IMG/VR virus record: IMGVR_UViG_3300032288_006230
Coordinates: 1 to 25,773 of that record
From: a virus
DNA length: 25,773 nucleotides
Direction: 5' to 3' (one strand)
Below, one piece after another: positions 73 through 23,582 of this stretch (positions within the stretch are counted from its first letter, which is position 1; every line of letters begins with the position of its first letter). Position numbers and translations under genes: made by a program. The notes below the pieces were generated by a model that did no database searches, was not told where the DNA came from, and saw only the letters and a program-made list of their open reading frames with translations.

Positions 73-663
73 ATGAAATTTAAAGAACATGCCGTTGGCA
101 TTTGCCAATACGACAATATTTTTGATGCTGGGAATTTTATTGAACTCTTAGAAGAGGAATGTTCTCAGGATTGGGGATATGTGCGATGGGAAAAGTCTGC
201 CACTGGCGAAGGGCAAATTTCTAATACAAGAACATCAATGGGGTGCGAATTGATGCCTCTTGGTTCTAATGAAATTTCTATTGAGAGAGTGATGCCACTT
301 GCGTCTGAATGGCAGAAAATTTGGGAAAAAATTGACCCGATTGTTTGGGATTACAGGCACGTTTTTGAGTTGGACTTAGAAATGGACGAGGGGTACCGTG
401 TGCTCAAATATGGCGGTGGCGCCGAGTACCATGCTCATCATGACCATTTTAGAAATAATGCACGAAGTTTAAGCCTGGTTGCTTTTCTGAATGACAATTT
501 TACTGGGGGTAATCTTGTATTCCCTCGTTTTAATGTAAATATTCAACCAAAGGCCGGAAGCGTTATTATGTTCCCTTCCAATTACCCGTATTTGCATATT
601 GCTGAACCTGTAGGGGAAAAGGACAACACTGTTAAATATTCTCTAGTGACGTGGTTCCAGTGA
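73..663 (+). CDS. 2OG-Fe(II) oxygenase (prolyl-4-hydroxylase-like)
   Basis: A 196-residue protein of the 2-oxoglutarate/Fe(II) dioxygenase superfamily, which hydroxylates or otherwise oxidises a substrate using O2 and 2-oxoglutarate. The iron triad is visible: H122-x-D124 in the segment YHAHHDHF and distal H175 in YLHIAEPV. K188 (VKYSLVTWF) stands where the family has the Arg or Lys that binds 2-oxoglutarate. The segment GGNLVFPRF followed by KAGSVIMFPS is the usual strand pair of the double-stranded beta-helix core. I chose ATG 73 over the in-frame TTG at 40 because the preceding gene ends at 71 and a GGAAGAA sequence lies upstream at 54-60. It is the first of three such enzymes within 5.5 kb. 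The substrate is unknown; phage members are commonly found near structural genes. Confidence 0.85.
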   Translation: MKFKEHAVGICQYDNIFDAGNFIELLEEECSQDWGYVRWEKSATGEGQISNTRTSMGCELMPLGSNEISIERVMPLASEWQKIWEKIDPIVWDYRHVFELDLEMDEGYRVLKYGGGAEYHAHHDHFRNNARSLSLVAFLNDNFTGGNLVFPRFNVNIQPKAGSVIMFPSNYPYLHIAEPVGEKDNTVKYSLVTWFQ

Positions 664-821
664 CTCCAGAACCTGAAGAATCTAACGTTGAACAAATTAT
701 CGATGCTAATTTTGATTTAACTACAGGCCGATATAAGGAAAATGACGAAAGTATTGTTTCCTGCGCGATGCTTGACCAGCCTATAGTTTTTGTAATTGAG
801 GACGAGAATAATGGGTTATAA
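660..821 (+). CDS. small acidic hypothetical protein (53 aa)
   Basis: A GTG at 660 overlaps the stop of the dioxygenase gene (GTGA arrangement) and opens a 53-codon frame ending with TAA at 819-821, which in turn overlaps the start of the next gene at 811. The protein begins VTPEPEESNVEQIIDANFDL and ends in IVFVIEDENNGL. It is strongly acidic, with no signal peptide or membrane segment. The coupling at both ends, and the 147-base hole that would otherwise be left in a very compact operon, support it as real. No family recognised. Confidence 0.6.
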   Translation: MTPEPEESNVEQIIDANFDLTTGRYKENDESIVSCAMLDQPIVFVIEDENNGL

Positions 822-1080
822 CTTACAGAATGACTTTGACTATGTTCAAAACCAACTAGCGACGATTGCCGTAACAATCGGCATTGACTTGGCAGATATT
901 CAAACTCTAACCCTGGATGACCTCATGGAGTCCTGTAGTAATGTTTTTGGAGCAGCCAGCCATGACCCAAATTCCCCAATTGCGGTTGAACAGCATGCCG
1001 AATTGCGCAGACACCAAATGTCTTTAAGGCGATTTTGGTATCTTTTTCATGTTCTAAAATGGAGACTAGACAATGAATGA
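811..1080 (+). CDS. hypothetical small phage protein (89 aa)
   Basis: Begins MGYNLQNDFDYVQNQLA and reads as mainly helical, with an aromatic and basic C-terminus (RRFWYLFHVLKWRL). ATG 811 is preferred over the in-frame TTG at 796 because GAGG at 798-801 is placed as a ribosome binding site for 811. It overlaps the preceding 53-residue gene by 11 bases and the following gene by 8 bases, so it is probably translationally coupled. No domain recognised; such small proteins between phage structural and tailoring genes are often accessory. Confidence 0.7.
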   Translation: MGYNLQNDFDYVQNQLATIAVTIGIDLADIQTLTLDDLMESCSNVFGAASHDPNSPIAVEQHAELRRHQMSLRRFWYLFHVLKWRLDNE

Positions 1081-1768
1081 TAACTACAGTGTTTTCCAAA
1101 TGGCAAACCTGCTTTCACATACTGTTTCTTCGGACATTGATAAGGCAGCCATTGTTGCGAGCAATGCACAGTTCTTGCAGTCCGAGATAGCGACTGGCGT
1201 TGATAGAAACCGTTCAGCAATTGGCTATTCAGTCCAACTAAATTGGCTAGACCAAATTAGTGACGCATCTAGTTCTGCCATGGATATTGAAGTATTAACG
1301 CGCTCTATTGTGGAAATTGCTGTACGAATTAAAAACCCATCAAAAGTTATTTTTTATGGGATGAATTATATTCTAGCGTCAACGCTTGGCGATATTGTTC
1401 CGACGGTTCATTATGTAAATACCACAAGTATTGATTACATGGAAAAATACACAAATACGATTATACCGGAAGAAAAAATAATCTCTATGGAGAATTTTGT
1501 CAATGGGGACATTGACGAAGATTACGATTTGGCACTCATTGATGTTGAAATGGTCAGTCATGATTTTTCAATCATTGACAATGTATGGGCCAAACTGCCT
1601 TCGGGTGCTTTGATGATTCTTAATATTGTCAATGACTTTGGCTCACTGTACTCGTTAAAGAATAAGCACCCCTACTTTCAGTACTTGTCACGCCTCGCCG
1701 AAGATGATGACAAATACTTGTTTCATATTCCCGTAGCAACAGGTTTCACATTTGTGGTTAAAAAATGA
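1073..1768 (+). CDS. degenerate class I methyltransferase-like protein
   Basis: 231 residues. The second half has the order of elements of a Rossmann-type SAM methyltransferase: a hydrophobic strand (KVIFYGMNYILAS) where motif I would be, a second strand VHYVNTT, a loop with EKIISMENFV, the strand DYDLALIDVEM (motif IV-like) and a strand after LPSGALMILNIVND. The glycine-rich SAM loop is not recognisable, so SAM binding is doubtful. The N-terminal 90 residues are helical and unassigned. GGAGA lies upstream of the ATG. It overlaps the previous gene by 8 bases and the halogenase by 4 (ATGA), so it is probably co-translated with the halogenase. Alternatives are a non-catalytic Rossmann-fold partner or an unrelated fold. 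Confidence 0.55.
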   Translation: MNDNYSVFQMANLLSHTVSSDIDKAAIVASNAQFLQSEIATGVDRNRSAIGYSVQLNWLDQISDASSSAMDIEVLTRSIVEIAVRIKNPSKVIFYGMNYILASTLGDIVPTVHYVNTTSIDYMEKYTNTIIPEEKIISMENFVNGDIDEDYDLALIDVEMVSHDFSIIDNVWAKLPSGALMILNIVNDFGSLYSLKNKHPYFQYLSRLAEDDDKYLFHIPVATGFTFVVKK

Positions 1769-3240
1769 ACAGAAAAAAGATAGTAGTCATTGGTTCTGGA
1801 ACTGCAGGACTAGTGACGGCACTTATTATCAAAAATTACTTCAAAAATTATGAAGTGACTGTCGTTTCTTCTAGTAAAAAAGGTATCGTAGGCGTGGGCG
1901 AAGGCTCAACAGAACATTGGCGTCATTTTCAAGATTCTATTGGTATAGACGTTCATGACATGATTAAAAATGCCGACATTACGCACAAGTACGGTATTAG
2001 ATACGAAAATTGGACGAATCATACACCCGACTATTTCCATAGCGTTGGTGGGACAGGATTGAGTGCTGGAACATTCTGGGGCGGCTACGCACATGCGTTA
2101 GAAAATGACTGGCCGTTAACGAGTACTTTTTCTTGGCGCGGTTTAGTAGATAACAAAATCATTGATGCCGGTGACAAGACGCACTTTGGAACAAACCAGT
2201 ATCATTTTGATACCTTCAAATTAAACGCATATTTAACTAAAATTGGACAAGACAGAAAAATTCATTTTATTGATGCAGACGTAAATGATGTTGGCGTAGA
2301 TGAATATGGTTTTATTCAGCATGTAAAACTTGATTCATCTGAAAATGTTATTGACGGTGACTTTTTTGTTGATGCAACTGGCTTCAATAGAGAAATTTTA
2401 AGCAAAATATCAGATAACAATTTTGTTTCATATCGCAAGTATCTCCCATGCGATAGCGCAATTGCTTTCCCGACGGCATCTGACCCATCTGGCCAGATTC
2501 GTCCATACACACGAGCAAGAGCATTGAAGAATGGCTGGATGTGGGAAATCCCAACCCAAAAACGCCGTGGCAATGGCTATGTCTTCTCATCAGACTTCTG
2601 CTCTGTGGATGAAGCAATTAAAGAAGCGTCTGAAATTCATGGTTTTGAAGTAGAGCCAGCAAAAACGCTTGATTTTAAATCAGGTTACTTTAGTACAACA
2701 TGGAAGAATAATTGTGTCGCCGTTGGCCTTGCTGCGGGATTTGTTGAGCCACTTGAAGCAACGTCAATTTCCACAACAATCCAGCAGGCTCGTTTAATCT
2801 GTTCATATCTTCCGACGTTTTCTTATAAAAGAACATATGGAATTAAGGAATATCATCGTGTCATGGACTCCATTATGGAAAATATCCTTTGCATGATTTC
2901 ACTCCACTACATTTCGGATAGAAATGACACTCCAATGTGGGTGGAGCAACAAAAAGCGGAAAAACCGCCATTACTAATGCATCTTCTTGAATTATGGAAT
3001 ACCAGATGTCCAGAACATCATGACATACCTTCAACGGGATTTGAATTATTTGGCCCAGCACATTTGTGGCATGTAGCCCAAGGGCAGGGAGTGCTCAACA
3101 AGGAAGTTGCATCAATGCAGTTGGAAGCATACAATTCTCGTGAATCTTCTAGAAAAAATATTTCACAAATATCATCGGAACTCATTAACCAGAAATTGGT
3201 GGACCATGCGGAAGCGCTCAGAAAAACTGCAAATAGTTAA
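1765..3240 (+). CDS. flavin-dependent (tryptophan-type) halogenase
   Basis: 491 residues, normal for this family. These enzymes use FADH2, O2 and halide to make hypohalous acid, which is passed to a substrate held about 10 angstroms away. Seen here: an FAD dinucleotide motif GSGTAG at 10-15; GVGEGST at 43-49 (family GVGEAT); K75 in THKYGIRYENW, placed like the catalytic lysine of PrnA and RebH; the diagnostic W258-M-W260-E-I-P263 motif that separates halogenases from monooxygenases; and GLAAGFVEPLEATS with E331 where the family has its second key acid. The gene starts inside the end of the preceding methyltransferase-like gene (ATGA). No flavin reductase is visible nearby, so a host reductase would be needed. 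Cyanophages are known to carry a relative (VirX1), which makes a phage setting credible. Substrate and halide preference cannot be read from the sequence. Confidence 0.9.
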   Translation: MNRKKIVVIGSGTAGLVTALIIKNYFKNYEVTVVSSSKKGIVGVGEGSTEHWRHFQDSIGIDVHDMIKNADITHKYGIRYENWTNHTPDYFHSVGGTGLSAGTFWGGYAHALENDWPLTSTFSWRGLVDNKIIDAGDKTHFGTNQYHFDTFKLNAYLTKIGQDRKIHFIDADVNDVGVDEYGFIQHVKLDSSENVIDGDFFVDATGFNREILSKISDNNFVSYRKYLPCDSAIAFPTASDPSGQIRPYTRARALKNGWMWEIPTQKRRGNGYVFSSDFCSVDEAIKEASEIHGFEVEPAKTLDFKSGYFSTTWKNNCVAVGLAAGFVEPLEATSISTTIQQARLICSYLPTFSYKRTYGIKEYHRVMDSIMENILCMISLHYISDRNDTPMWVEQQKAEKPPLLMHLLELWNTRCPEHHDIPSTGFELFGPAHLWHVAQGQGVLNKEVASMQLEAYNSRESSRKNISQISSELINQKLVDHAEALRKTANS

Positions 3241-4021
3241 ACCAGACATTTTTCATGATTTACCAAAATTGAAGAAAAACCAAGTATTGCTTTCTTGCGT
3301 TGACCCAAATCTAATGGATGATTCATGTCGCCCGTATGCCAATAATGGGAATTGGCCCGAATGGTGGAAGAAACTAAGTGGTTCTGATGGGAGCCTTAAG
3401 AGATGTTCAGGGACGTCTGACTATCTTGCAACAGGTTTCACTATCCCCCTATGGGCAAAGTTGATGATTCGTCCATCTTTGAATGGGAAAAACTGGGATG
3501 CTAAATTTGATTTAGTCACTGATTTAGGGAACTATGGCATTGAAAGTTTTATGTATTCGCAAACAGGCGAATGTCCTGTTGCAAGAGCACGAAAACTTCA
3601 AGAATCGAACTACATTAAAGTTATTAACCCTTGGCTAATAAAAACTCCCCCAGGTTGGTCTTCTTTATTTCTCCCACCACTTTGGGACCCTAATCCGAAT
3701 TATACGATGCTCCCCGCAGTAGTTAATACGGATTATTACCACAATGCGCATATGGTGATTAATGTATTAACTAATGAGCCTTTTGAACTTGAGGTAGGAC
3801 GCCCGATGTGGCACGTAATTCCATTCAAAAGAACTAAAGAATCTGAACTATTATGGGGCGATACAAATGCCTATAATCTTCTGAAACATAGAGGATTCGG
3901 GGGTGGCTTTATGCCTAAAAGACAAAAAAGTAAATACAAAAAAATGCAAAGAGATGCCGATTCAGATTTAGCCACGCAAAAGAAAACATTTATTGATAAA
4001 ATAATGAGACGAGACGACTGA
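3206..4021 (+). CDS. uncharacterised halogenase-neighbour protein (possibly DUF6065-like)
   Basis: From ATG 3206 the protein is 271 residues and begins MRKRSEKLQIVKPDIF. A longer frame from 3107 would overlap the halogenase by 134 bases, so I reject it; GGTGGA just before 3206 can serve as a weak binding site. Recognisable blocks are a Trp/Pro-rich middle (KTPPGWSSLFLPP) and a beta-rich end (MVINVLTNEPFELEVGRPMW, then HVIPFKR), with a basic tail. These blocks recall a family of unknown function (DUF6065) often listed beside phage and cyanobacterial halogenases; I hold this only loosely. The tight overlap with the halogenase gene suggests a linked job, perhaps substrate presentation. Confidence 0.6.
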   Translation: MRKRSEKLQIVKPDIFHDLPKLKKNQVLLSCVDPNLMDDSCRPYANNGNWPEWWKKLSGSDGSLKRCSGTSDYLATGFTIPLWAKLMIRPSLNGKNWDAKFDLVTDLGNYGIESFMYSQTGECPVARARKLQESNYIKVINPWLIKTPPGWSSLFLPPLWDPNPNYTMLPAVVNTDYYHNAHMVINVLTNEPFELEVGRPMWHVIPFKRTKESELLWGDTNAYNLLKHRGFGGGFMPKRQKSKYKKMQRDADSDLATQKKTFIDKIMRRDD

Positions 4022-4030
4022 GGTTCTGAT

Positions 4031-4270
4031 ATGGAATTCAATATTACAGAAAACCAAAAAACTATTGCCAGAGAGACTGCACGCCGCCGTTTAGAAACAG
4101 AATTGTTTACCGCCGTCCTACTTGCAGGAGTGGACCCCGATGACCTAGAGTTGGTTGATGGCTCTTTTACTTGGCAACCAGATTTTTCAAACGCTGCCTA
4201 CAGCGACACCGCCCAACTTCACCTACGAGACATTCTTAATGTCTACGAAAAGTTTTTATCTCAAAACTAA
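4031..4270 (+). CDS. hypothetical small acidic protein (79 aa)
   Basis: Begins MEFNITENQKTIARETARRR, with one amphipathic helix followed by an acidic segment (GVDPDDLELVDGSFTW) and a C-terminal helix. GAGG at 4020-4023 stands 7 bases before the ATG, a good ribosome binding site. It lies between the halogenase neighbour and the second dioxygenase in the same direction. No family recognised; size and helical content resemble assembly or adaptor proteins of phages, but this is only an impression. Confidence 0.7.
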   Translation: MEFNITENQKTIARETARRRLETELFTAVLLAGVDPDDLELVDGSFTWQPDFSNAAYSDTAQLHLRDILNVYEKFLSQN

Positions 4271-4282
4271 ACTGAAAGGTCT

Positions 4283-4969
4283 ATGATGACCATCCAATTT
4301 TCTTGGCCTGCAGGGAAATCTTCAGCCATTATGGTTGCTGAAAATATTTTAAGCAAAGAATTATGTTCTTCAATTATTGATGAGTCTTCAAAATATTATG
4401 AGAGACTGTTTATACCGGGTCCAGTCATCAGTGGCGTGATGGCTAATGTTAAAAATACAATGGATTTTAGTTGGTCAAAAGAGAATCTAATAAATAACAA
4501 CATTCCACCAGAGCCATTGTCTACATATGAAATGGAACTCTCAAAGGCAATCTTTACTTCTGTTGGATATTATCGTGAACAATTTAAGTGGCTTTGGGAC
4601 TGGGTGGGTATTTGCGATACGGGATTTCGTATGCAAAGATATATTCGTGGTGAAGGTTTCTATAGGGAACACATTGACGGCGGGCCGGTTCCTGTAGTTA
4701 TCTTGAATCGTGTTCTCGGTGCTGTCGTTTATCTGAATGATGTCGAAGTTGGTGGGGAAACATATTTTCGCGAACAAGACATTTATGTGCCTGCCAAAGC
4801 AGGGTCAATAGCGTTATTTCCTGCGTATTGGACACATCCACATCAAGGGTGCGTGCCAATTTCAAATGACAAATGGATTGTTAGTACATTCATATTGGAA
4901 AATAGCGAAAATCAGCCTATTGACATGATTGACAACGGAGGGTCTTTAGCCAATGAGCACCTATTATGA
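4283..4969 (+). CDS. 2OG-Fe(II) oxygenase (second copy)
   Basis: 228 residues. The double-stranded beta-helix core shows the iron ligands H130-x-D132 (YREHIDGG), the strand LGAVVYLNDVEVGGETYF, then AGSIALFPAYW leading to H185 and H187 in THPHQG (one of these is the distal iron ligand), and K197 in DKWIVSTFI as the likely 2-oxoglutarate anchor. This is the prolyl-4-hydroxylase type of layout. The start may be ATG 4283 or ATG 4286; AAGG at 4276-4279 is better spaced for 4286. The sequence differs much from the first copy, so the two are not a recent duplication. Substrate unknown. Confidence 0.83.
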   Translation: MMTIQFSWPAGKSSAIMVAENILSKELCSSIIDESSKYYERLFIPGPVISGVMANVKNTMDFSWSKENLINNNIPPEPLSTYEMELSKAIFTSVGYYREQFKWLWDWVGICDTGFRMQRYIRGEGFYREHIDGGPVPVVILNRVLGAVVYLNDVEVGGETYFREQDIYVPAKAGSIALFPAYWTHPHQGCVPISNDKWIVSTFILENSENQPIDMIDNGGSLANEHLL

Positions 4970-5576
4970 CCCATTAACTAATCGCACGTTACACAAGAGA
5001 CCCCCAGCATTCATGGTTAATGAAGTTTTTGAGCCATCTGTATTCATTAAATTAAATGAAGACTTATCTTTACTGCAGGAGACCAAAGTAATTTCCTATG
5101 AGCCATCCCTGGGTAGATTCGGCATAAATAGTACGGAGAAAACAGAGTCTCCATTAGCGGAATATCATGAAATTTTATTAGACAAAGCCCGGTCCATATT
5201 TACCCCAACATTAAAACCTACTTACTGTCTGTGGGTAACCTATCGTGGATTTAGGGCACAACTGCCGAATCATGTTGATGACAATGCCTGCACCTACACA
5301 ATGGACTTGTGTGTCTCATACAAAACCCAATGGCCCATCTATGTTGAAGAACAAGAGATGTTGCCTGAGCCAAACCAAGCAGTATGTTATTACGGTGAGG
5401 ACCAATATCATTGGCGCGAACGTTTTCCTGACCCTGCGAACAATGAAGTTCAAATGATTTTCTTTCATTTTGCCGAACCGGAACATTGGTATTTTACTAA
5501 GGGGCCATCCCACTTGCATGAAGTTGCCCGCGCCAGACACGAGTACCAGAAAAAGAACGGCATCAAAGGCACATGA
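4953..5576 (+). CDS. 2OG-Fe(II) oxygenase-like protein (third copy)
   Basis: 207 residues, beginning MSTYYDPLTNRTLHKRPPAF. The core carries H107-x-D109 (PNHVDDNACTY) and a distal H153 (QYHWRERF) followed by strands VQMIFFHF, the spacing expected for a jelly-roll dioxygenase. The Arg or Lys that binds 2-oxoglutarate is not obvious: the equivalent stretch reads NEVQMIFFHF, so cosubstrate use is less certain than in the other two. GGAGGG near 4937-4942 is the binding site, rather far upstream, and the gene overlaps the previous one by 17 bases. Function inferred from fold motifs only. Confidence 0.7.
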   Translation: MSTYYDPLTNRTLHKRPPAFMVNEVFEPSVFIKLNEDLSLLQETKVISYEPSLGRFGINSTEKTESPLAEYHEILLDKARSIFTPTLKPTYCLWVTYRGFRAQLPNHVDDNACTYTMDLCVSYKTQWPIYVEEQEMLPEPNQAVCYYGEDQYHWRERFPDPANNEVQMIFFHFAEPEHWYFTKGPSHLHEVARARHEYQKKNGIKGT

Positions 5577-5869
5577 ATAAAATTGTTCAGTTTGAACAGA
5601 AGATAGTTGATGCTGTCAAAACAATGTCCAAGAAAGAATATTGGAATCGTCCTAACATTGTTGAGGCATGGGGCTTTGCGACAAAGATTCTCATTATCTT
5701 TCCTGGTTTACTTCTGGGCAAGCAGTGGTGGTGGCTGTACATTTTTGCCATCGTTTCCAGTATTTGTTTAATTTGGTCATCTACTAAGAAAACATTGCCG
5801 ACCATTATCCTCTTCAATGTTGCTTGGGTTGTCTTGGCGACTGCTTCGATTGTGAAACATTTCGTATGA
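5573..5869 (+). CDS. small integral membrane protein (98 aa)
   Basis: After a charged N-terminal 30 residues there are about three hydrophobic segments: TKILIIFPGLLLG, WWWLYIFAIVSSICLIW and TIILFNVAWVVLATASIV. The gene starts inside the stop of the third dioxygenase (ATGA), and its own stop overlaps the glycosyltransferase start. Membrane protein of unknown function. Its place directly before a glycosyltransferase could mean it presents a lipid-linked substrate, but it could also be an unrelated envelope protein. Confidence 0.7.
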   Translation: MNKIVQFEQKIVDAVKTMSKKEYWNRPNIVEAWGFATKILIIFPGLLLGKQWWWLYIFAIVSSICLIWSSTKKTLPTIILFNVAWVVLATASIVKHFV

Positions 5870-6642
5870 TTTCTATTATTACGCCCACATATAACACTCC
5901 GCAGGAAATCCTTGCCCGCACTTGGGGTTCTCTGAAGTCTCAGACCTTTACGGACTGGGAGTGGGTTGTCTGGGACGACTCCACGAACAATGAGACTTGG
6001 CGGCAACTATATGGCTTCTGTGCCGACGAGCGCTATAAACTTGCTATGCACCGGTCCCATGTCCATTCTGGCTCTATTGGAGAAGTCAAGCGGAACGGCT
6101 TCATGGTCGCCAAGGGAGACATCTTGGTTGAACTTGACCACGACGATGAGTTAATGCCAGATGCTCTGCAACTCATTAATGATGCATTTAATAGTAGTCC
6201 AGAGGTTGGTTTTGTTTATTCAGACTGGTGCGAAATACTCCCAGATGGGCAGTCAGGACGCTATCCGAGCGGTTGGGCCTTTGGGTACGGTAGTGACTAT
6301 TGGGACGAGCAGCACGGGGTTTGGACCATGCGTGCGCCTGAACTTAATACCGTCACAATGAGACACATCGTCTCAGCGCCCAATCACGTTCGTGCGTGGC
6401 GAGCCGACGTATATCACGCCCTTAATGGCCATGACTGGAATCTGAAGGTTGCCGACGACTATGACCTATGTGTGAGAACTTTCCTGACCACAAAGTGTTG
6501 CCATATCCCAAAGATGATTTACAAACAGCATATTTCGCCAAAGACCGCTCAACGGCAGCAAAATGCGCTTATTCAAGAAAATGTTGCAATTATTGCAGAG
6601 AAATACAAGCCTTTTCTTGATGACCTATTCGATAGGCTCTGA
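5866..6642 (+). CDS. family 2 glycosyltransferase (GT-A fold)
   Basis: 258 residues starting MISIITPTYNTPQEILARTW, the classic first strand of GT2 enzymes, which transfer a sugar from a nucleotide-sugar donor. The metal/nucleotide acidic motif is D91-H-D-D-E95 (DHDDE), followed by the helix MPDALQLINDAF. A later VADDYDLCVR segment resembles the catalytic-base helix (ED motif). I chose ATG 5866, which overlaps the previous stop as ATGA; a longer frame from 5824 lacks the clean domain start. No membrane segment, so cytoplasmic. It ends the first gene island; possible acceptors are a virion protein, DNA or a cell-wall glycan. Confidence 0.88.
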   Translation: MISIITPTYNTPQEILARTWGSLKSQTFTDWEWVVWDDSTNNETWRQLYGFCADERYKLAMHRSHVHSGSIGEVKRNGFMVAKGDILVELDHDDELMPDALQLINDAFNSSPEVGFVYSDWCEILPDGQSGRYPSGWAFGYGSDYWDEQHGVWTMRAPELNTVTMRHIVSAPNHVRAWRADVYHALNGHDWNLKVADDYDLCVRTFLTTKCCHIPKMIYKQHISPKTAQRQQNALIQENVAIIAEKYKPFLDDLFDRL

Positions 6643-6709: not shown

Positions 6710-7090
6710 ATGGCACTTTACCCAGCAACCTTAACTGGCCCTACTTTATTAAGTATTGGAGCCACCGTAGCAGATGCCGCCCAGGTATATGATTCGGACA
6801 ACCCGGTGACATCACCGGGCTCAGCACGGGCAGCGAATGTTACCATTGTTAAACAAATCATCGTCTGCAATACCGACACTTCCGCCCGTACTTTTAGCCT
6901 CTATCTCGCCAATGATACTCCGGTTGCCATTGCCGACACGCTCTTTGAAGGAGTATCATTGGCTGCTGGGGAAACAAAGATTATTAATACCTCCATTGTA
7001 TTGCGTGCTGCCCAAGACCATAAACTGCATGCTCGCGCATCAGTCGACAGCAAAGTAGTACTTACCCTGGTTGGACTCGAGGAGTACTGA
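6710..7090 (+). CDS. probable virion protein, beta-rich (126 aa)
   Basis: Begins MALYPATLTGPTLLSIGATV. The body alternates short strands (TIVKQIIVCNTD, ARTFSLYLAND, GVSLAAGETKIINTSIVL, KVVLTLVGLEEY), the pattern of small jelly-roll or immunoglobulin-like decoration and tail proteins of phages. A strong binding site (AGAGGAG) and a fresh gap before it suggest it starts a structural transcription block. It overlaps the next gene by one base. Exact virion position unknown. Confidence 0.65.
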   Translation: MALYPATLTGPTLLSIGATVADAAQVYDSDNPVTSPGSARAANVTIVKQIIVCNTDTSARTFSLYLANDTPVAIADTLFEGVSLAAGETKIINTSIVLRAAQDHKLHARASVDSKVVLTLVGLEEY

Positions 7091-9578: not shown

Positions 9579-12578
9579 ATGGGGAATATGACAAAACGGG
9601 GACTAATTTCATTTTGGCTTATTGCTGCCCTTGCTTGGTTCGCGCCTGCAAATGTTTATGCGACCAATGCGAACCTACTAGTTAATGGCAATTTTTCTGC
9701 CAACGAAGGTGGGTGGGTGGGCGCTAATGGTGGAGCGTCTTGCTCTGGAGGCTCACCAAGTCTTGGGATTTGGGGTGGTGGACCACAACTGACGTTTAGT
9801 TATATGCAGAATTCCGTATCACAGCAAGTGAACATTGCCTCCCCATCGGAACTAGAACTATCCTTCCTTGCCAATGGGCCTAATGGTGGAACATATAGCG
9901 CGACGATTTCCGACTCGGACCAATCTGTAACAACTGGAGTACTGACTGCGGGGGAAAATCAAGTATCCAATTTGAGGATAACCACGACACAACAAGATGA
10001 AATAGTTACCGTTACTTTTTCTGGCGTAGATTCTCTATTTTGGGCTGGATGCTATGGGCCAGTAATAAGGAATGCTTCGCTGACAGTAGTTACACAGCCA
10101 ACCTCGCTGGTAGTTACGAGTCTTTTGGATGACGGCTCCGTTGGAACGCTACGTTGGGCGATAAATCAAGCAAACGCCATATCTGGTGGAATTCATGACT
10201 CCATTACCTTTGGCGTTGATGGTACGGTTTCGTTAACGAGTGCGTTGCCTCAAATTACACAATCCGTGACAGTCACTGGAAACGGTATTGCCAACACAAT
10301 CATTGATGGAAATAACTCTTATCGTTTATTTGATGTTCGCACAGCAAGAACTTTAACTATCTCCAACATGACCCTCAAGAGAGGTCAATCAACGAGTGGT
10401 GGCTTAATTTATATCAATAACGGAACAGTCAATGCTTCCAATATGCGCCTAACTTCAATGACTGGCGGAAGTGCAGTGTTTACAAGCAACAACTTTTCGT
10501 ATGCTACTTACACAGACTCAACATTTGACAATCTGAGTGTTGGTATTGCTGGAGACTGGGGCAATACCCCATCTTTGGGTAATGGAGTTACTTCTTGGGA
10601 TACTTTTGATGACTCTGGTTTCTCAAACAGAACGTACGTTATTCGTGGACAATTCACAAACAACACATACGCCATCAATAATTATAGATTCACAAAAATT
10701 GAAGACTCCACATTCACAAATAACACTTATGCTGCGTTTATTACTGGATGGAACAGGTCGCAAATATATGGTTCTACATTCACCAATAATACGGTAGCAA
10801 TTTATCATTCGGCAACCATAACTGGTGGCGCAAATATGGGCACCGATAACCGAATCATTGTCGGTAATAGTTTTGTAAATAACACTTCTGCAATAGTTTT
10901 ATCTGACCAATATCAAGTCGGTGGAATTATTCAGAAAAATCAGAATTCAGCAAAAATATCTAATAATAATTGGGATGTTAATGCTTCACCTGGGGCAAAA
11001 TACATAACTTATTATCAATTCCCAGACAACACTACGCCACTATACGCCCTGCCTGACTCTACTGGCGTTCCGTGGTCGGGCACTGGAAACAGCGTCGTCA
11101 CAACCACGACGACAACTACAACAACCACCACTATCCCCGAGCCCACATTTAGTGGCGGAGGATGTGGCCCCTACAATAGAATAACCGTAACGGGTCAGTC
11201 TGCTGGTTCAATCTGGGGAGATGGCCCTTACACCGATGACTCTAATTTTGGCGTCGCTGCGGTTCATGCAGGATTAATTGACGTAGGAGAAACGGCAATA
11301 CTTGAACCGTATGGAGTTGATAATTATCCATACTTCTATGGCACAACAAAAAATGGTGTTTCTACTTCAGCATGGGGGAGTAGTTGGTGCGGTTTTTATA
11401 TAAAAATTGCAGGAACCGAAACTCCTGAGTATAACTATCCAGGTCCAACTACAACTACGACGACCACAACTACAACTACCACCACGACACCAGAACCAGA
11501 ACCTACAGAACCCCCAGATACGACACAGCCCGAACCGGAGCCTACGGACCCTCCGGACACAACAGAACCTGAGCCAGAACCTACTTTGCCTCCTGATACA
11601 ATACCTGAGGAGACAGATACTACTGATGGAGGTCCTGATGGAGGAACCGGAAGTTCAACCGACACAACGTCACCCGAAACAACCGTACCTGAATCAGCCC
11701 CAGAAGAAGAAACGCCAGATACGACACCGGACATACCGGTAGAAGAAGAAACGCCAGAGGCAGTCGTTGACGACATTCTGGCCGATGACCCCTCACCAGA
11801 AGAACTGACAGATGCTGTTGGTGAAGCATTGGCTGCGACTGAGTCAGAAGAAGAACTTGTCAGCGTTGCTACTGAACTCTTGACATCAGACCTTGACGCC
11901 GAGCAATTCGCTGCAGTAGTTGCCGAAGTGTTCAGTCAGGATTTATCCGACGAAGCACTCACTGAACTCGTTACTACGGTTTTTGAACAGGATTTGTCAG
12001 ATGAAGAAATTGCTGCCGTCGTAGGCCAGGTATTCACCGCTGACATTAGCGACGAAGCATTCGCTGAAGTTCTCAATACGGTATTTGAAGAGCCACTAAG
12101 CGACGATGCCTTTGCATCGGTCATTGATGCAATCTTAGACGAACCAATTTCGGATGAAGCATTCGATGAACTTGTTGACGTCCTCGGTAGTGACACGGTT
12201 AGTGATGAGCAAGTCGTGGCTGCAGTTGACTCCATTATTGAAAATGGCCTTTCTGAAGAGCAATCAATAAGCATTGCTACAAGTGGCGAGGTGTTGGAGT
12301 CAGTCACGGGCGACCAGGCTTCTGAAATCTTCGCCACCGTTCCAATTGGCGATATCTCGGACGCCGAGGCTGCTGCTCTTGTTGAGGCCGTACAGGACGC
12401 ACCTGTGGAAGTCAAAGAATCATTTGAGACAGAGATTAATATTTTTGCAGCAGGAAATGTAGACACTTATGTGCCACTTGGTTCTGAGGTTCCAGTAGGT
12501 ACTAGGCGTGTCATTATTGCTGCTGCGGCAGTTGTTGTTGCAGTAGCGCCAGTACCAGTATCTAGAAAAGGGAGATAA
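9579..12578 (+). CDS. secreted membrane-anchored beta-helix/LCCL surface protein
   Basis: 999 residues. In order: a Sec signal peptide (about 1-29, hydrophobic GLISFWLIAALAWF, likely cleavage after VYA); a domain starting NLLVNGNFSANEGGW, like carbohydrate-binding jelly rolls (30-175); a right-handed beta-helix (about 178-490) opening with SLLDDGSVGTLRWAINQANA; a Thr-rich linker (507-522); an LCCL domain (about 526-612) with GSIWGDGPYTDDS, AAVHAGLI and NGVSTSAWGS; a second Thr/Pro/Glu linker (from 623); ten acidic 17-residue repeats (738-907); and a C-terminal hydrophobic segment followed by SRKGR. This is a cell-surface protein architecture, not a normal virion protein. The start may be ATG 9579 or ATG 9588; the GGGGA between them is too close to 9588 to decide. 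Likely captured from an actinobacterial host, and expected outside the infected cell, held by the C-terminal helix. Confidence 0.85.
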   Translation: MGNMTKRGLISFWLIAALAWFAPANVYATNANLLVNGNFSANEGGWVGANGGASCSGGSPSLGIWGGGPQLTFSYMQNSVSQQVNIASPSELELSFLANGPNGGTYSATISDSDQSVTTGVLTAGENQVSNLRITTTQQDEIVTVTFSGVDSLFWAGCYGPVIRNASLTVVTQPTSLVVTSLLDDGSVGTLRWAINQANAISGGIHDSITFGVDGTVSLTSALPQITQSVTVTGNGIANTIIDGNNSYRLFDVRTARTLTISNMTLKRGQSTSGGLIYINNGTVNASNMRLTSMTGGSAVFTSNNFSYATYTDSTFDNLSVGIAGDWGNTPSLGNGVTSWDTFDDSGFSNRTYVIRGQFTNNTYAINNYRFTKIEDSTFTNNTYAAFITGWNRSQIYGSTFTNNTVAIYHSATITGGANMGTDNRIIVGNSFVNNTSAIVLSDQYQVGGIIQKNQNSAKISNNNWDVNASPGAKYITYYQFPDNTTPLYALPDSTGVPWSGTGNSVVTTTTTTTTTTTIPEPTFSGGGCGPYNRITVTGQSAGSIWGDGPYTDDSNFGVAAVHAGLIDVGETAILEPYGVDNYPYFYGTTKNGVSTSAWGSSWCGFYIKIAGTETPEYNYPGPTTTTTTTTTTTTTTPEPEPTEPPDTTQPEPEPTDPPDTTEPEPEPTLPPDTIPEETDTTDGGPDGGTGSSTDTTSPETTVPESAPEEETPDTTPDIPVEEETPEAVVDDILADDPSPEELTDAVGEALAATESEEELVSVATELLTSDLDAEQFAAVVAEVFSQDLSDEALTELVTTVFEQDLSDEEIAAVVGQVFTADISDEAFAEVLNTVFEEPLSDDAFASVIDAILDEPISDEAFDELVDVLGSDTVSDEQVVAAVDSIIENGLSEEQSISIATSGEVLESVTGDQASEIFATVPIGDISDAEAAALVEAVQDAPVEVKESFETEINIFAAGNVDTYVPLGSEVPVGTRRVIIAAAAVVVAVAPVPVSRKGR
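11097..11135 (+). repeat. ACN-repeat coding a threonine linker (first)
   Basis: Runs of ACA, ACC and ACG triplets encode an unbroken threonine stretch linking the beta-helix to the LCCL domain. Such tracts are typical O-glycosylated or extended linkers in actinobacterial surface proteins and may vary in length by slippage. Confidence 0.75.
11444..11625 (+). repeat. threonine tract and PEPT/PPDT linker repeats
   Basis: A second ACN tract (11444-11491) is followed by tandem units of the type PEPEPTEPPDTT, PEPEPTDPPDTT and PEPEPTLPPDT. They form an extended proline-rich spacer between the LCCL domain and the acidic repeat region, suited to span a cell wall. Confidence 0.75.
11790..12299 (+). 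repeat. ten tandem 51-base units coding 17-residue acidic helical repeats
   Basis: Residues 738-907 fall into ten units of exactly 17, for example LSDEALTELVTTVFEQD, LSDEEIAAVVGQVFTAD, ISDEAFAEVLNTVFEEP and LSDDAFASVIDAILDEP. Each begins [LIV]S[DE][ED] and is probably a short helix ending in an acidic turn. The units are diverged at the DNA level, so the array is old. Function unknown; a rigid stalk is plausible. Confidence 0.8.
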
Positions 12579-14318: not shown

Positions 14319-15695
14319 ATGAAGGCATTTCGTCGTATCTCGTTATATCTAATAGGTGTTTTTGGTTTGCTTGGGATGGCTTCTTTGCTGTCGCCGACGT
14401 CATTGGCTCCCGTTTATGCAACCGCAAGTAGTGGTGGTCCAATAGTCCTAGATGGTATGGACCCGGTGTGTCACGCTGTATACGGCGAGAATACAGACCA
14501 GTACATCGCAAAAGTCCTAAAAAGTGTTTATGACCAGTCATCCATGCCTGGGAACAGCGGCAAAATTGCCATTCTTGGAACATCGGGCCCCACAAATGCC
14601 GGCGGGTGCGGGGGCAACTGGAACACATTGCTGTCTGGTAAGTTTCTAAGCCAATTTGCAACAGCCCCAACAATTCAATTTATTTCAACAACGACAGAAT
14701 TGGATGCCTTTTTCTCAAGTGGCATCACTAGTTCGGCCCCTCGTATGATTTGGATTGCAGACGACTGGAGTCGTTCTTCCGCAGTAAATACCATCCTTAC
14801 CACTAACGCTGAAAAAATTGCTGACTTCGTCAACTCTGGTGGCGGACTATTCGCAAACAGCAATGAGTATGGTTGGCTAACTGCACTTCTCCCTAGCGCC
14901 GTATATAACAATGGCGGATGCAATGGCGGCCCAGAAGCAACGACAGAAGGGACCACAGACTTTGGTCTCACGAATACTATCGTTGCAGCATGTTGGCATG
15001 GTTACTTTACTGGCAATGTAGGAACACTCAAGACTCTCGTTGACTACCCATACCCGTCACCAACAGATACCCGTAAGGCCGTTTCTATCGGTGGCGGCGA
15101 AGTCTCATTGCCGAGTTCATTCACTCTTTCTATTAGTCCAGAAAATCCCCCTGCTGGAACACCACTCACAATCACCGCTACGGCACAGACGCTTGCTGGG
15201 GTGCCTCAGGCTGGCGTTACCGTGAGTGTTGTTGTCAGTACTGGTCCTGATGCTGGACAAACATTTACTGCTACAACAAATTCCACAGGAATTGCAACAA
15301 TCACAATCAATACTTCTTCCGTTGGGACGAACGTTTATACCGCTACAGCGACTGTTAATGGTGTTGCAAAAACAGTGTCAACAACGGTCACTTGGTCCGC
15401 TGCTCCCACGACAACAGTAGCCCCAACAACTACGACAGAGGCTCCCGCAACGACTACCACAGAAACTCCCGTAGCAACAACAGAGCCAGCCCCTACGACA
15501 ACAGAGGCCCATCACGAGCACACAACACCGACCGATGCTCCCCACGAGCACACAACAACGACTGTTGGCTATCTAGTTGAAGAATTACCTCAAACTGGCA
15601 TAGATACTGATGAGATAAAATGGTTTGCTATGGCGCTTCTTGGCACTGGTTTGCTAGTAGCACTTATTACAAAAAAGACGAGGGTAGCAAAATGA
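14319..15695 (+). CDS. LPXTG-type cell-wall-anchored surface protein
   Basis: 458 residues. A signal peptide (about 1-35, SLYLIGVFGLLGMASLL, cleavage near VYA) leads to a 210-residue globular domain that includes IADFVNSGGGLFANSNEYGW, reminiscent of the ThuA/glutamine-amidotransferase-like fold. An Ig-like (Big_1-type) domain follows (about 268-363), then a Thr-rich linker with His-containing repeats (HHEHTTPTDAPHEHTTTT). The C-terminus is a full sorting signal: L423-P-Q-T-G427, a hydrophobic segment (WFAMALLGTGLLVALI) and a basic tail KKTRVAK. A sortase would cut between T and G and link the protein to peptidoglycan. No sortase gene is in the window, so a host enzyme is implied. AAAGGGGAC precedes the ATG. 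It sits between lysis-region membrane genes. Confidence 0.85.
   Translation: MKAFRRISLYLIGVFGLLGMASLLSPTSLAPVYATASSGGPIVLDGMDPVCHAVYGENTDQYIAKVLKSVYDQSSMPGNSGKIAILGTSGPTNAGGCGGNWNTLLSGKFLSQFATAPTIQFISTTTELDAFFSSGITSSAPRMIWIADDWSRSSAVNTILTTNAEKIADFVNSGGGLFANSNEYGWLTALLPSAVYNNGGCNGGPEATTEGTTDFGLTNTIVAACWHGYFTGNVGTLKTLVDYPYPSPTDTRKAVSIGGGEVSLPSSFTLSISPENPPAGTPLTITATAQTLAGVPQAGVTVSVVVSTGPDAGQTFTATTNSTGIATITINTSSVGTNVYTATATVNGVAKTVSTTVTWSAAPTTTVAPTTTTEAPATTTTETPVATTEPAPTTTEAHHEHTTPTDAPHEHTTTTVGYLVEELPQTGIDTDEIKWFAMALLGTGLLVALITKKTRVAK
15585..15599 (+). other. sortase recognition motif LPQTG (coding)
   Basis: The codons TTA CCT CAA ACT GGC encode LPQTG, followed by 8 residues, a membrane segment and four basic residues. 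Spacing matches canonical sortase substrates of Gram-positive bacteria. Confidence 0.85.
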
Positions 15696-16376: not shown

Positions 16377-16748
16377 TCACACCTTGATGGCGTTACGTTC
16401 TTTGAGTACTTTTGCTATTTTCTTTCGCTTAACATTGCTTTCAGGAAGTTCACGAAGGCGCTCGTATTCAACTGTCAATTTGAGCCGTTCAATATAGGCG
16501 ATATTGCCCTTGCGATGGCGATGAGACCAGCCAGCGGTGCCGCCCCACACCCCGGATACCTCGTGATTTTCTAGAGCGTATTCCGCACACTTGACAATGA
16601 CTGAGCACCCAGAACAGAAGTCCTCGGCTTGTCTATGTCTACTGCGAACATTCGTTTCTTCAGGGTCGGGGAAGAAAATTTCTGGGTCAGCACCGCGACA
16701 CTTGGCGCGAGAAAACCATGCAACATTGGCAATATTGTCTGTAGTCAT
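16377..16748 (-). CDS. WhiB-family iron-sulphur transcriptional regulator
   Basis: 123 residues from MTTDNIANVAWFSRAKC. The four cluster-binding cysteines are C17, C45, C48 and C54 (C-x2-C-x5-C in FCSGCSVIVKC), followed by the G66-V-W-G-G70 turn and a basic C-terminus (WSHRHRKG and KRKKIAKVLKERN) that should touch DNA. WhiB proteins hold a 4Fe-4S cluster and bind the major sigma factor's region 4. I chose the ATG at 16748 because the longer frame overlaps the neighbouring gene. It is transcribed after the 1027-residue gene with a 34-base gap. Confidence 0.92.
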   Translation of the reverse strand: MTTDNIANVAWFSRAKCRGADPEIFFPDPEETNVRSRHRQAEDFCSGCSVIVKCAEYALENHEVSGVWGGTAGWSHRHRKGNIAYIERLKLTVEYERLRELPESNVKRKKIAKVLKERNAIKV

Positions 16749-16782
16749 TGGGCCACAGCCTAGCGATGATGGCCCAAAATTA

Positions 16783-19700
16783 CTACCAGTCTGGCGGTAA
16801 TGCTTCCTCGTTGAGGTCGCGGAAATCGTACGACAGCGCAATGCTCTTGTAACTAAAACGCTCTGCAAGTCTGCCGCGCCTGTCAATGCCAAACATTTCG
16901 TCGCTCTTAATATTGATTCCCTTGTCTGCGAGCCAAGCAACCAATTCACCGGGCTGAATACCTAGTGCTCTCGCTACGTCACGTCGAATAGTTCCCATCC
17001 GTGCGCCGGTCAACTCGCCTGGAGACTTGCCTTTGAGTATTTGGTACATCTCGCCAAGTACTTCATTTTTTCCTTTGCCACTTGCCAGCAATTCCTTGGC
17101 AGTACTTAGTGCAACCTGCGTGGCATTGGCGCCAGGCTTGGAGCCACGCTGTGCATATGCGCCACGAGACTGAACCATGCCCTCAATGAGGAGACGGATG
17201 CCCGCATCTGGGATATCAAATTTCTTGCTCAGCGCAGCAATTGCCTTGACTTGCTGTTGGTTATTTTCTTGCATTGCCTGTGGGAACGCATTGCGAATTT
17301 CAGCAACAAAACCCGCCCATTCCTTTATTTTACTTGGGTCCGAAAGCATTGAATTGCCGAAGATATTGCCAAGACCACGGAACGGGTCGCTGCCATTAAC
17401 TCGCGTAATGCCTCCACCGCCAGGGTATAGGGCATCAATGACTTGCTGAGTAACGCCAGATTTGCCCTTCCATCTTTCTTCGTACTCACTCTTGAGTAGT
17501 CCTCCGAGCGTTCTATCTACAAGTAATCTTGCAAGAACTGGGGATACATCATTTAGTCGTTGAAAAATGTCCTCATCTAGTTGTTCTTTTCGGCCCACTT
17601 CTTCATTCTTGTCTCTAATGAGAGCCTTCAGTCTATTAAAGAAGTTATTGTATGCTTTTTCTGCTTCATCGTTATCGGCTAGATTGGGTAATTGCACAAA
17701 CCGCCCGCTAGTAGAAGCGTCCTCTGGCGAGGTGCCTCCAGCAATATTGCTACCGAGACCACTACCACCACCTGTGCCTTGTTCTGAAGGCGCCTGGTCA
17801 AAGCCACTACCGCCCATATCTATTGATACGTTGGCTCTGTCGGGGTCGTTGTCGTCGTAGGTTCCAAATGTGTCGCCGAACTCTCCACTATCATCGTCAC
17901 TCCCAGCAGGAGCATCAAGTGACAATGCGAGTTTTCGCCTTTGAATAACTTTTTGCTTGCCAGTCTTTGGGTCGATTTCTGGGACCTTATTCCCGTCGGC
18001 ATCTAATAAAAACGTGCCGTCTTTGGCCCTTACCCACTGCGGTTCAGGCTCAAACAAGACAGCCTTTTGTTGGGCCTCTTTGCGTCCTAGTGCGCCACTG
18101 AGAGTTCTTTCCAGCGCCTTGACCATTTCCGCAATGGTATTCGGTCGCGGATTGCCATCCTTGTCATTGACAAATGGGTGCCCTCCAAGTGGGAACTTCA
18201 AAGCCTCTGGGAATCCTAAAGTATCAGAAACTTTTTTATCCCACCATTTTGTGCTGCCATCTTTATCCACGGGGACCCATGCCAAGAATGAAAAGTCACC
18301 CTTCTCCATCATTGGCATATAGTTAGCCACAACTGCGGCAAGAATCTCCTGACGAAGGTCTTCTGTCATCCCTTGCGCTTTTGCTGATACACCAGCAGTA
18401 CGCGGTCCATCGTATCCAGGCCAGTTGAACATACTACCTTGTACGGCCGCCATCACTGCGGGCAGCCATGTATCTTCAACAAACTGCTTGAGTTTACGTT
18501 GTTCTCTTTGACTTAATGGCAGGCCATCCTGTTGAGGGAATAATGACTCTCCAAGTTTGCGCTTACCTGCATTGGATGCAGAGCGAGTTGAGCGGATTGA
18601 TAGGAGTGTTGATTCTGGGGTGAAGGTAGCAACTTGATGGTCGCGACTTACAGATTCCCCGATTGATTCATGATTCGGTGGCCGCTTGAGGCCTGACGAA
18701 TTAGATTTCATTCGGTCATAAATATCCTTACGGACCGCCGCATTGGTTTCTCTCTTGAACGCTTGATACAGCGGCTCATTCTTCTTCTTGGCAGCCAATG
18801 ATGCCTTTGTATGGAATTGAACTTCATAGTTAAATCCACGCGGGTCTTGAATCATTGCATTTACGCCACTATATGGGTCCTTGGAGCCCCAGTAGTTCCA
18901 AGTAGTGACGCGAGACCCATCTGCTCTAAGCGTAGCCAACGCCGACTTGACGAAATCGGAGTAGTCGTCAACACCGTCTGTAACAAACGTATAACGCAAT
19001 GCGTCATTCATCTGTACTGCCGTTGCACCTATATCGCCATCAAAATTGCCCTTGAGACGCTCAATCTTATTTGCAAACGAGTCAAGTGTTTTGAATTTTT
19101 TATCCAAATCAGCAAGTTTGGCAAAGCCGCCAGATGCTGACTCAATATCTTTCATTTTCTTGGTTACTTGAGGTTCGTTTCTACGGATAACCCTCTGTGC
19201 TGCTTTTGCAACTTCTACCGTATCGTCGGAAGGCTTTTCGCTACCCTTGGATGTAGAGCGCAACGACGAAATTGCAGGCGAACCTGGCAACGCTGGGCGC
19301 GCCCACGGGGTTCCCTCTTGTACGGTTCCATCATTATCGCCGTCAATGGCTTTCGGGTCGTATTTTTCAACAGACCGACCAACTCGCCTAAGCGTCTGGC
19401 CCAATCCTTTGGCCTGGATTCCAGAACCTACACGCACTTCTGCTTCAAAGTCGCGACGGTTTTGCTTTATCTCTTTTGCAAATTCTGTGTCTTCCTCTTG
19501 TGCAGTTGATGAACTAATTATGTCTTCATCAGGGAAGTAAGTGGCAATTTCGCGTGCTTTTTTATATAGCCATTTTGTATATTCGTAAGCATCATCTTCA
19601 GAAACAAAACGGCCAAGGTGTCCGCCTGTCTTTTTGTAGAGACGGACTGATTGCTGGTCGCTCATATCCTGGCCAATTGGATTTATCTTTGGCAAGATTG

Positions 19701-19866
19701 CATGAATGAGCCCATCTTTGTAGACATGCATGGACTGTCCAATAGACTTCATATAGGAGGCATAGTTATTGGCAGCAATATCGATATTGCCTTTTTCGGC
19801 AGGGGCGACAGGGGCACCATCTCCGTATTCTGGCATCATGCTTCCGTCAAATAGTTTTTGTCCCAT
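16783..19866 (-). CDS. 1027-residue protein with RelA/SpoT synthetase-like domain
   Basis: GGAGGAATA directly before the ATG is a strong binding site. Residues 175-185 (DGDNDGTVQEG) are an EF-hand-like acidic loop seen in actinophage head-associated proteins. Residues 235-390 look like a (p)ppGpp-synthetase fold: K257-F-K259-x3-S263-x3-K267 matches the R-x-K-x3-S-x3-K ATP motif of RelA, D288 in NDALRYTFV matches the metal Asp, Y332 in PYSGVNAM matches the G-Y-x-S substrate motif, and E348 in YEVQFHT matches the EIQIRT motif. Residues 460-535 (FVEDTWLPAVMAA, EDLRQEILAAVV, DFSFLAWV) weakly resemble sigma-70 region 2. A Gly/Ser/Asp-rich linker (655-720) and a helical C-terminal half with an HTH-like stretch (935-985) follow. 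Short motifs RST and ALSxD at module borders suggest a polyprotein or a packaged multidomain protein. Confidence 0.75.
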   Translation of the reverse strand: MGQKLFDGSMMPEYGDGAPVAPAEKGNIDIAANNYASYMKSIGQSMHVYKDGLIHAILPKINPIGQDMSDQQSVRLYKKTGGHLGRFVSEDDAYEYTKWLYKKAREIATYFPDEDIISSSTAQEEDTEFAKEIKQNRRDFEAEVRVGSGIQAKGLGQTLRRVGRSVEKYDPKAIDGDNDGTVQEGTPWARPALPGSPAISSLRSTSKGSEKPSDDTVEVAKAAQRVIRRNEPQVTKKMKDIESASGGFAKLADLDKKFKTLDSFANKIERLKGNFDGDIGATAVQMNDALRYTFVTDGVDDYSDFVKSALATLRADGSRVTTWNYWGSKDPYSGVNAMIQDPRGFNYEVQFHTKASLAAKKKNEPLYQAFKRETNAAVRKDIYDRMKSNSSGLKRPPNHESIGESVSRDHQVATFTPESTLLSIRSTRSASNAGKRKLGESLFPQQDGLPLSQREQRKLKQFVEDTWLPAVMAAVQGSMFNWPGYDGPRTAGVSAKAQGMTEDLRQEILAAVVANYMPMMEKGDFSFLAWVPVDKDGSTKWWDKKVSDTLGFPEALKFPLGGHPFVNDKDGNPRPNTIAEMVKALERTLSGALGRKEAQQKAVLFEPEPQWVRAKDGTFLLDADGNKVPEIDPKTGKQKVIQRRKLALSLDAPAGSDDDSGEFGDTFGTYDDNDPDRANVSIDMGGSGFDQAPSEQGTGGGSGLGSNIAGGTSPEDASTSGRFVQLPNLADNDEAEKAYNNFFNRLKALIRDKNEEVGRKEQLDEDIFQRLNDVSPVLARLLVDRTLGGLLKSEYEERWKGKSGVTQQVIDALYPGGGGITRVNGSDPFRGLGNIFGNSMLSDPSKIKEWAGFVAEIRNAFPQAMQENNQQQVKAIAALSKKFDIPDAGIRLLIEGMVQSRGAYAQRGSKPGANATQVALSTAKELLASGKGKNEVLGEMYQILKGKSPGELTGARMGTIRRDVARALGIQPGELVAWLADKGINIKSDEMFGIDRRGRLAERFSYKSIALSYDFRDLNEEALPPDW
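18682..19164 (-). other. RelA/SpoT nucleotidyltransferase-like domain (coding region)
   Basis: Codes residues 235-395 of the 1027-residue protein. Four landmarks occur in the right order and roughly right spacing: K-x-K-x3-S-x3-K, ND-ALRY, PYSGVN and EVQFHT. In bacteria this fold makes (p)ppGpp or, in toxic small alarmone synthetases, modifies tRNA or makes (p)ppApp. Which applies here cannot be told. Confidence 0.65.
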
Positions 19867-23581: not shown

Positions 23582-23582
23582 A

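Follow-up and report, generated by a model that had tools for sequence, protein, structure and literature searches.

A flavin-dependent halogenase in a conserved oxygenase cassette of a probable actinobacteriophage, and a candidate role in tail adhesin modification

The viral DNA analyzed here, positions 1 to 25,773 of the IMG/VR virus record IMGVR_UViG_3300032288_006230 (25,773 bases in all, referred to below as the window), encodes at 1765-3240 on the plus strand a protein of 491 residues that is very likely a flavin-dependent halogenase. The gene opens with an ATG and belongs to a run of tightly spaced genes on one strand (approximately 73-6642), most of which overlap and inside which the window begins. 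Enzymes of this family depend on a separate reductase that supplies reduced flavin adenine dinucleotide (FADH2); hypohalous acid forms at the flavin and is guided by a lysine and a glutamate. An earlier note on this DNA had described the gene as a phage halogenase with an apparently intact active site, and the origin of the sequence from a virus record agrees with its assignment to a phage. Here we examine the conservation, ancestry and genomic surroundings of this halogenase, and we propose, at somewhat short of an even chance, that it modifies the tail adhesin of the phage, a substrate suggested by neighboring genes.

The Pfam family Trp_halogenase (PF04820) matches residues 5-450 of the product with E = 2.4e-101 and 340 bits, compared with a curated cut-off of 21 bits, which answers the profile search proposed earlier, and phrog_2928, 'tryptophan halogenase', matches it with E = 1.1e-98. 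A script check located the open reading frame and each catalytic motif at the positions previously named. These motifs, all on the plus strand, are the GxGxxG sequence that binds flavin adenine dinucleotide (FAD; GSGTAG, residues 10-15, 1792-1809), the flavin loop GVGEGST (residues 43-49, 1891-1911), the catalytic lysine K75 (1987-1989), the W-x-W-x-I-P motif spanning W258, W260 and P263 (WMWEIP, residues 258-263, 2536-2553), and the catalytic glutamate E331 (2755-2757). K75 aligns with the motif lysine of PyrH, and E331 lies in an EPLEATS sequence that aligns with EPLESTG of PyrH. Across 36 aligned phage sequences, including both halogenases of cyanophage Syn10, K75, E46, W258, P263 and E328-P329-L330 are invariant and E331 is nearly so; in a second alignment of 43 sequences, comprising the window and 42 IMG/VR relatives, E331 is invariant. 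The two FAD loops do deviate from their usual forms, as had been pointed out, yet GSGTAG and GVGE[GS]STEHW are the normal state of the clade to which the enzyme belongs and do not represent a defect.

Selection and predicted structure agree with this picture. Nei-Gojobori ratios of nonsynonymous to synonymous substitution (dN/dS) were 0.039, 0.071 and 0.064 against relatives that are 95%, 96% and 86% identical, respectively, which places the gene under strong purifying selection. An AlphaFold2 model built from 43 aligned sequences reached a predicted local distance difference test score (pLDDT) of 92.5 and a predicted template modeling score (pTM) of 0.92. Its best match in the PDB is PyrH (Z 44.1, 2.1 Å over 481 residues in a second-look structural alignment), the 48 top-ranked entries are all flavin-dependent halogenases of the same family (Z 36-44), and the entries that follow, CndH and Bmp2, are also FAD-dependent halogenases (Z 26). 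The earlier note had allowed for a displaced lysine or FAD site, or for monooxygenases as the closest relatives. No displaced motif of either kind occurs in the alignments, the nearest folds are halogenases, and the sequence lacks FxPxSxG, a motif that single-component flavin monooxygenases usually contain. The active site therefore looks intact as judged by its motifs, and the conserved motifs together with the dN/dS values rule out a degenerate or decaying gene.

Maximum-likelihood analysis of 62 sequences places the window within a supported clade (100/97) of 43 members, all of which are IMG/VR contigs, phage isolates (P-SSM2 and S-H38) or phage-like contigs in metagenome bins. The clade is marked by the conserved peptides GE[GS]STEHW and NQYHFDT. 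A scan with these peptides of 84,980 bacterial and archaeal genomes, which detects signature-bearing sequences only, returned four relatives; three of these (loci L086, L087 and L089) are accompanied by genes for phage heads, phage tails or replication of the phage type, and at the fourth (L088) the phage cassette is present. Within the scope of such a scan, the STEHW clade looks restricted to viruses so far. VirX1 of Syn10 groups instead with copies from loci L069, L072 and L075, and the neighboring Syn10 halogenase also lies outside the clade of the window. The kinship with the VirX1 group that the earlier note had suggested is thus ruled out by the tree, which places VirX1 in a different supported group at approximately 23% identity. 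The expectation that an actinophage enzyme would widen the VirX1 group is supported as regards the likely host and unsupported as regards the group, and an actinobacteriophage 'tryptophan halogenase', that of DSL-LC01, has already been reported (PMC10611076). Acquisition from an actinobacterial host is likewise unsupported: five of 198 genomes of the actinobacterial phylum match PF04820 at 1e-20, of which four match only partially and the fifth is a phage-like contig of a metagenome-assembled genome (MAG), and the signature search found phage-like contigs only.

Several loci in this comparison depart from a single full-length gene. At L024:10001-11251 the halogenase is shorter (an open frame of 418 residues), approximately 70 residues near its C-terminal end having seemingly been lost with the remaining cassette intact, and the truncated halogenase of L017 is possibly of the same kind. 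Loci L069, L070, L072 and L074-L079 carry three to four tandem halogenase genes, a single operon containing both STEHW-type and VirX1-like copies.

The sequence also bears on the class of substrate. A motif study has defined four tryptophan-binding regions in halogenases, Trp1 to Trp4 (PMC8269204). In the window enzyme, GEGSTEHW occupies the place of Trp1 (GEAT-x-P type), H92-S-V stands in place of the HxF of Trp2, and neither pattern of Trp4 occurs in the sequence. Because these published motifs for binding free tryptophan are missing, free tryptophan is an unlikely substrate, as it is for the group C enzyme BrvH.

The genomic surroundings of the halogenase are conserved in two respects. Among 14 phage contigs of 81-194 kb, which are mutually related and do not represent 14 independent events, 24 of the 34 genes matching PF13640, the domain of 2-oxoglutarate (2OG)-Fe(II) oxygenases, lie no more than 5 kb from a halogenase; when gene positions were rotated at random 20,000 times, the count never exceeded 19. 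The same association is present in cyanophages, a pelagiphage and gammaproteobacterial phages. Furthermore, a tandem pair of related fiber proteins is encoded upstream in 41 of the 44 clade loci with at least 4 kb of upstream sequence, phage contigs from gammaproteobacterial MAGs included. The longer member is rich in glycine, histidine and asparagine, is encoded on the same strand, and ends between 11 bp and 2.5 kb before the halogenase. Its identity between relatives (85%, 66% and 54%) is lower than that of the halogenase (93%, 87% and 73%, respectively), indicating that it evolves faster, as expected for a host-recognition protein. The pair is identified as fibers or adhesins from where the genes lie, from protein composition and from PHROG tail matches in neighboring genes, as it has no family match of its own; the two proteins of locus L014 matched nothing among 50,697 phage records or in Pfam, and the longer of them had no match in PHROGs either. 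The long fiber (L014:6438-8171, L003:5865-7610, L020:4497-7721 and L087:2654-4117) has a conserved N-terminal domain, 'DMYYxNLTVxSGATLFTNGFRVFV', and carries glycine-rich stretches and a low-complexity region very rich in histidine, asparagine and glycine, for example HNAGHGYHHHPAGHHGGNHNSGHG.

Wherever close relatives have enough sequence upstream (16 of 16), a long collagen-like gene is present at a distance of 5-9 kb in that direction, its Gly-X-Y repeats having glutamine or threonine at Y and alanine or proline at X. Collagen was rejected as a single universal partner of the halogenase, since the gene is found nearby in only part of the clade. In one contig (IMGVR_UViG_3300042484_001840, locus L042) the collagen matches appear a second time 133,701 bases further on, a repetition suggesting that the ends of the contig overlap and that the genome, of approximately 134 kb, is complete.

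The cassette itself encodes, in order, a 2OG oxygenase (2OG-A), a small protein, a 231-residue protein without recognized family, the halogenase, a partner protein of dUTPase fold, a second small protein, two further oxygenases (2OG-B and the candidate 2OG-C), a 98-residue membrane protein and a family-2 glycosyltransferase (GT2). All are on the plus strand, neighboring open reading frames overlap by 4-35 nt, and the order is kept in 18 relatives. The cassette has a G+C content of approximately 38-43%, compared with approximately 45-52% across most of the remaining window. 2OG-A (73-663) is a prolyl-4-hydroxylase-like 2OG-Fe(II) oxygenase (PF13640, 4.4e-15) whose reading frame opens at a TTG at 40 and whose conserved start methionine is at 73; its best PDB match is the prolyl 4-hydroxylase of Bacillus anthracis (6.5e-8). 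2OG-B (4283-4969; PF13640, 2e-8) is of the same type, with B. anthracis procollagen-proline dioxygenase as its best solved match (2.9e-5), and both proteins contain the PF13640 domain and the HxD metal motif. 2OG-C (4953-5576; phrog_2954) had no match in Pfam or the PDB and is a candidate third Fe(II) oxygenase, with H107-x-D109 and H153 invariant in the alignment.

The remaining cassette genes are less readily classified. The small conserved protein at 811-1080 is found in the same order in 19 loci. The 231-residue protein (1073-1768), present in 26 loci and overlapping the halogenase start by 4 nt, gave no convincing family match, with weak methyltransferase-like hints only. The gene that overlaps the halogenase end (3206-4021) matches phrog_7084 (1.4e-22), with weak similarity to DUF6065, for which a literature search returned no text. 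Its model (pLDDT 84.5) has a dUTPase (beta-clip) fold, the 50 best PDB matches all being dUTPases (Z 9.9), and of the five dUTPase catalytic motifs only a motif-3-like TDYY is evident, in which D176 is invariant and Y178 nearly so. This partner occurs in 54 loci, as a rule directly 3' of the halogenase gene; Syn10 has it too, at the locus of VirX1. Distant relatives (26-28% identity) are present in loci L090 and L091 and in other haloarchaeal tailed viruses (HSTV-4 and HJTV-2), where they sit between ribonucleotide reductase and tail-fiber or adhesin genes. The small conserved protein at 4031-4270 is a paralogue of a small gene that precedes 2OG-A in relatives, the 98-residue protein (5573-5869; 33 loci) is hydrophobic by its sequence, and GT2 (5866-6642) matches PF00535 (1.7e-15). 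Just beyond the cassette, 6710-7090 on the plus strand encodes a small tail protein (phrog_16194 tail, 0.0028; phrog_20100), designated T126, whose homologues in relatives adjoin tail-fiber genes upstream of the cassette.

Beyond the cassette, the window carries two genes for WhiB transcription factors, at 16377-16811 on the minus strand (PF02467, 1.7e-18) and at 23565-23882 on the plus strand (PF02467, 8.7e-15). WhiB-like genes are a key indicator of actinophages (PMC10202952); they are present in 11 of 12 large relatives and, among 14 control genomes, only in Corynebacterium. An actinobacterial host, as the earlier note had supposed, is well supported by these genes, and the phage probably infects freshwater actinobacteria. 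The window also encodes a secreted threonine-rich protein (14319-15695) with an LPQTG sortase signal and a C-terminal membrane anchor, features of a wall-anchored surface protein of a Gram-positive-type host, and a 999-residue protein (9579-12578) that apparently has a signal peptide and that contains an LCCL domain and acidic repeats of Thr/Pro/Glu, genes related to which lie near the cassette in many relatives. A 1027-residue protein with weak head-morphogenesis similarity (16783-19866, minus strand; phrog_7625, phrog_2859) is encoded in none of 79 halogenase loci, so that the window departs, in its right half, from the compared sequence of its relatives.

These observations can be drawn together in a model in which the cassette would most likely be a module for post-translational modification. 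The halogenase would be co-expressed with 2OG-A, 2OG-B, the candidate 2OG-C, the dUTPase-fold partner and GT2 from an operon of overlapping genes. A flavin reductase of the host is assumed to supply FADH2, because a phage-encoded reductase was sought and none was found via PF01613 in 23 phage contigs, several of which may be fragments, other reductase families not having been searched. From FADH2, oxygen and halide, a hypohalous species would form within the enzyme, and K75 and E331 would steer the halogen onto an electron-rich aromatic group. Tail adhesins encoded by the phage would be hydroxylated by the oxygenases, glycosylated by the glycosyltransferase and, on their aromatic side chains, halogenated by the halogenase, the targets being the collagen-like fiber, the His/Gly/Asn-rich fiber pair just upstream, or both. 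The outcome would be a hardened fiber or tuned host recognition. Enzyme identity, intact motifs, selection, the operon, the genomic linkage and the likely host are supported by sequence or structure, and from these we infer catalytic activity, substrate and benefit.

Several points weigh against adhesin modification. The lack of a PF01613 reductase is one, and enzyme activity and virion modification are both predictions. A gene's neighborhood is no proof of its substrate, since late-region morons often adjoin tail genes. The fibers upstream in the window phage are deduced from relatives whose halogenases are 95-96% identical; the collagen-like gene is absent nearby in some clade members, such as L020, L027, L031 and L036, and the fiber pair is missing in L022, L023 and L046, and none of the 23 loci beyond the clade has it. 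Nor is it obvious what the dUTPase-fold partner would contribute to protein modification. This last protein invites a different explanation, in which a nucleobase or nucleotide is halogenated or otherwise modified with the help of the partner and TET/JBP-like 2OG oxygenases. Although the partner has an invariant D176 and a near-invariant Y178 at the place of motif 3, and 2OG-A has a weak Tet_JBP match (E 0.004), that match is far below cut-off, the best solved matches of the oxygenases are protein hydroxylases, no thymidylate-synthase-type hypermodification gene was recognized in the window, and the cassette is located in the tail region; we regard this explanation as very improbable. Equally hard to credit is a flavin enzyme that has lost selective halogenation and acts as a generator of hypohalite or hydrogen peroxide or as an unspecific oxidase. 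Flavin-dependent halogenases make free hypohalous acid and the tryptophan-binding motifs have been lost, but K75 and E331, which directed halogenation requires, are conserved under strong purifying selection.

Production of a halogenated, hydroxylated and perhaps glycosylated small molecule (a secondary metabolite) during infection has more to recommend it. Most characterized relatives act on this class of substrate, and a review of jumbo phages proposed such a product for clusters of P-SSM2 and S-SSM6a with halogenase, 2OG oxygenases and carbamoyltransferases (PMC7824862). However, no non-ribosomal peptide synthetase, polyketide synthase, carrier protein, carbamoyltransferase or transporter was recognized among the cassette genes scanned, and the resemblance of the oxygenases to protein prolyl hydroxylases, the tight linkage to fiber genes and the missing free-tryptophan motifs leave this explanation unlikely. 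If the target were instead a polymer on the surface of the host, be it teichoic acid, a glycan or a protein of the wall, altered for example to block superinfection or prepare release, this would account for the similarity of GT2 to glycosyltransferases for teichuronic and colanic acids, for the membrane protein in the same operon and for the secreted genes nearby, one of them with the LPQTG anchor. Such polymers are usually poor in aromatic groups, however, the cassettes of many clade members are without GT2, and the halogenase-2OG core does not need it; this possibility appears improbable.

Extending adhesin modification beyond the window, we suggest more tentatively, and with real doubt, that tailed phages infecting several bacterial phyla use a dedicated cassette of halogenase, hydroxylases and sometimes glycosyltransferase for the chemical finishing of their adhesins, with collagen-like and His/Gly/Asn-rich fibers as the substrates. 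If so, these would be, to our knowledge, the first halogenated virion proteins. Halogenation would then join glycosylation as a phage modification of receptor-binding parts, the clade would supply enzymes for halogenating substrates that are large or polymeric, and the open active sites and the lack of a known natural substrate of phage halogenases such as VirX1 would be explained. The cassette and its fixed place beside fiber genes make the question of substrate directly testable. That phages carry halogenase genes is well established: the protein has matches in 67 GenBank phage records, and 20 of 153 cyanophage genomes were reported to have one (PMC10452541). The apparent novelty lies in the presence in actinobacteriophages of the virus-restricted STEHW clade, in a conserved halogenase-oxygenase-dUTPase-fold cassette, elements of which also surround VirX1, and in the fixed position of this cassette behind fiber genes. 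A literature search turned up no report of a natural substrate for any halogenase of a phage, and what it returned on the connection of such enzymes with tail fibers or a native substrate was limited to the jumbo-phage review and cyanophage papers of a general kind.

Comparison with known systems places the window enzyme among several partial counterparts. The PrnA-type halogenases of P-SSM2 (YP_214448.1) and S-H38 (QPB07927.1) belong to the same clade (100/97) and share with the window the E[GS]STEH(W/F) loop and nearby 2OG oxygenase genes, but they are only approximately 32-33% identical to it, belong to phages with cyanobacterial hosts, and have no dUTPase-fold partner that we could find beside them; the P-SSM2 gene adjoins tail-fiber assembly genes. 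Two S-H38 genes (L081:8392-9024 and 11434-11925; phrog_2297 and phrog_274) bear the label 'DNA endonuclease V' and yet resemble 2OG-Fe(II) oxygenases (weak Pfam matches, E 0.0004 and 0.003), the label being seemingly a propagated annotation error. In the pelagiphage HTVC008M, a halogenase is encoded within the structural region, where several genes for 2OG oxygenases are also present. VirX1 (PDB 6qgm), an iodide-preferring halogenase according to a review, has the same fold as the window model (Z 35.9), intact motifs, and a locus that shares 2OG oxygenases and a relative of the dUTPase-fold partner; it differs in clade, in identity (23%) and in its loop, GESTLGHF as opposed to GEGSTEHW. DSL-LC01, a predicted actinobacteriophage, encodes a 'tryptophan 7-halogenase' (ORF137, L084:8977-10548) that adjoins collagen-like genes, a glycosyltransferase and WhiB and is 24% identical to the window enzyme; because aspartate replaces its catalytic glutamate and the GVGE flavin loop is lost, this halogenase may be inactive. 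The closest solved structures, the bacterial tryptophan 5-/6-halogenases PyrH, SttH and Tar14 (Z 43.6-44.1, 2.0-2.1 Å over 476-481 residues), share the catalytic motifs but bind free tryptophan via the Trp1-Trp4 motifs that are missing in the window. Finally, the lanthipeptide tryptophan 5-halogenase MibH (PDB 5uao; fold match Z 39.1), which halogenates tryptophan within a ribosomal peptide, is a precedent for action on a residue within a polypeptide, although it serves the biosynthesis of ribosomally synthesized and post-translationally modified peptides in actinobacteria rather than the modification of phage fibers.

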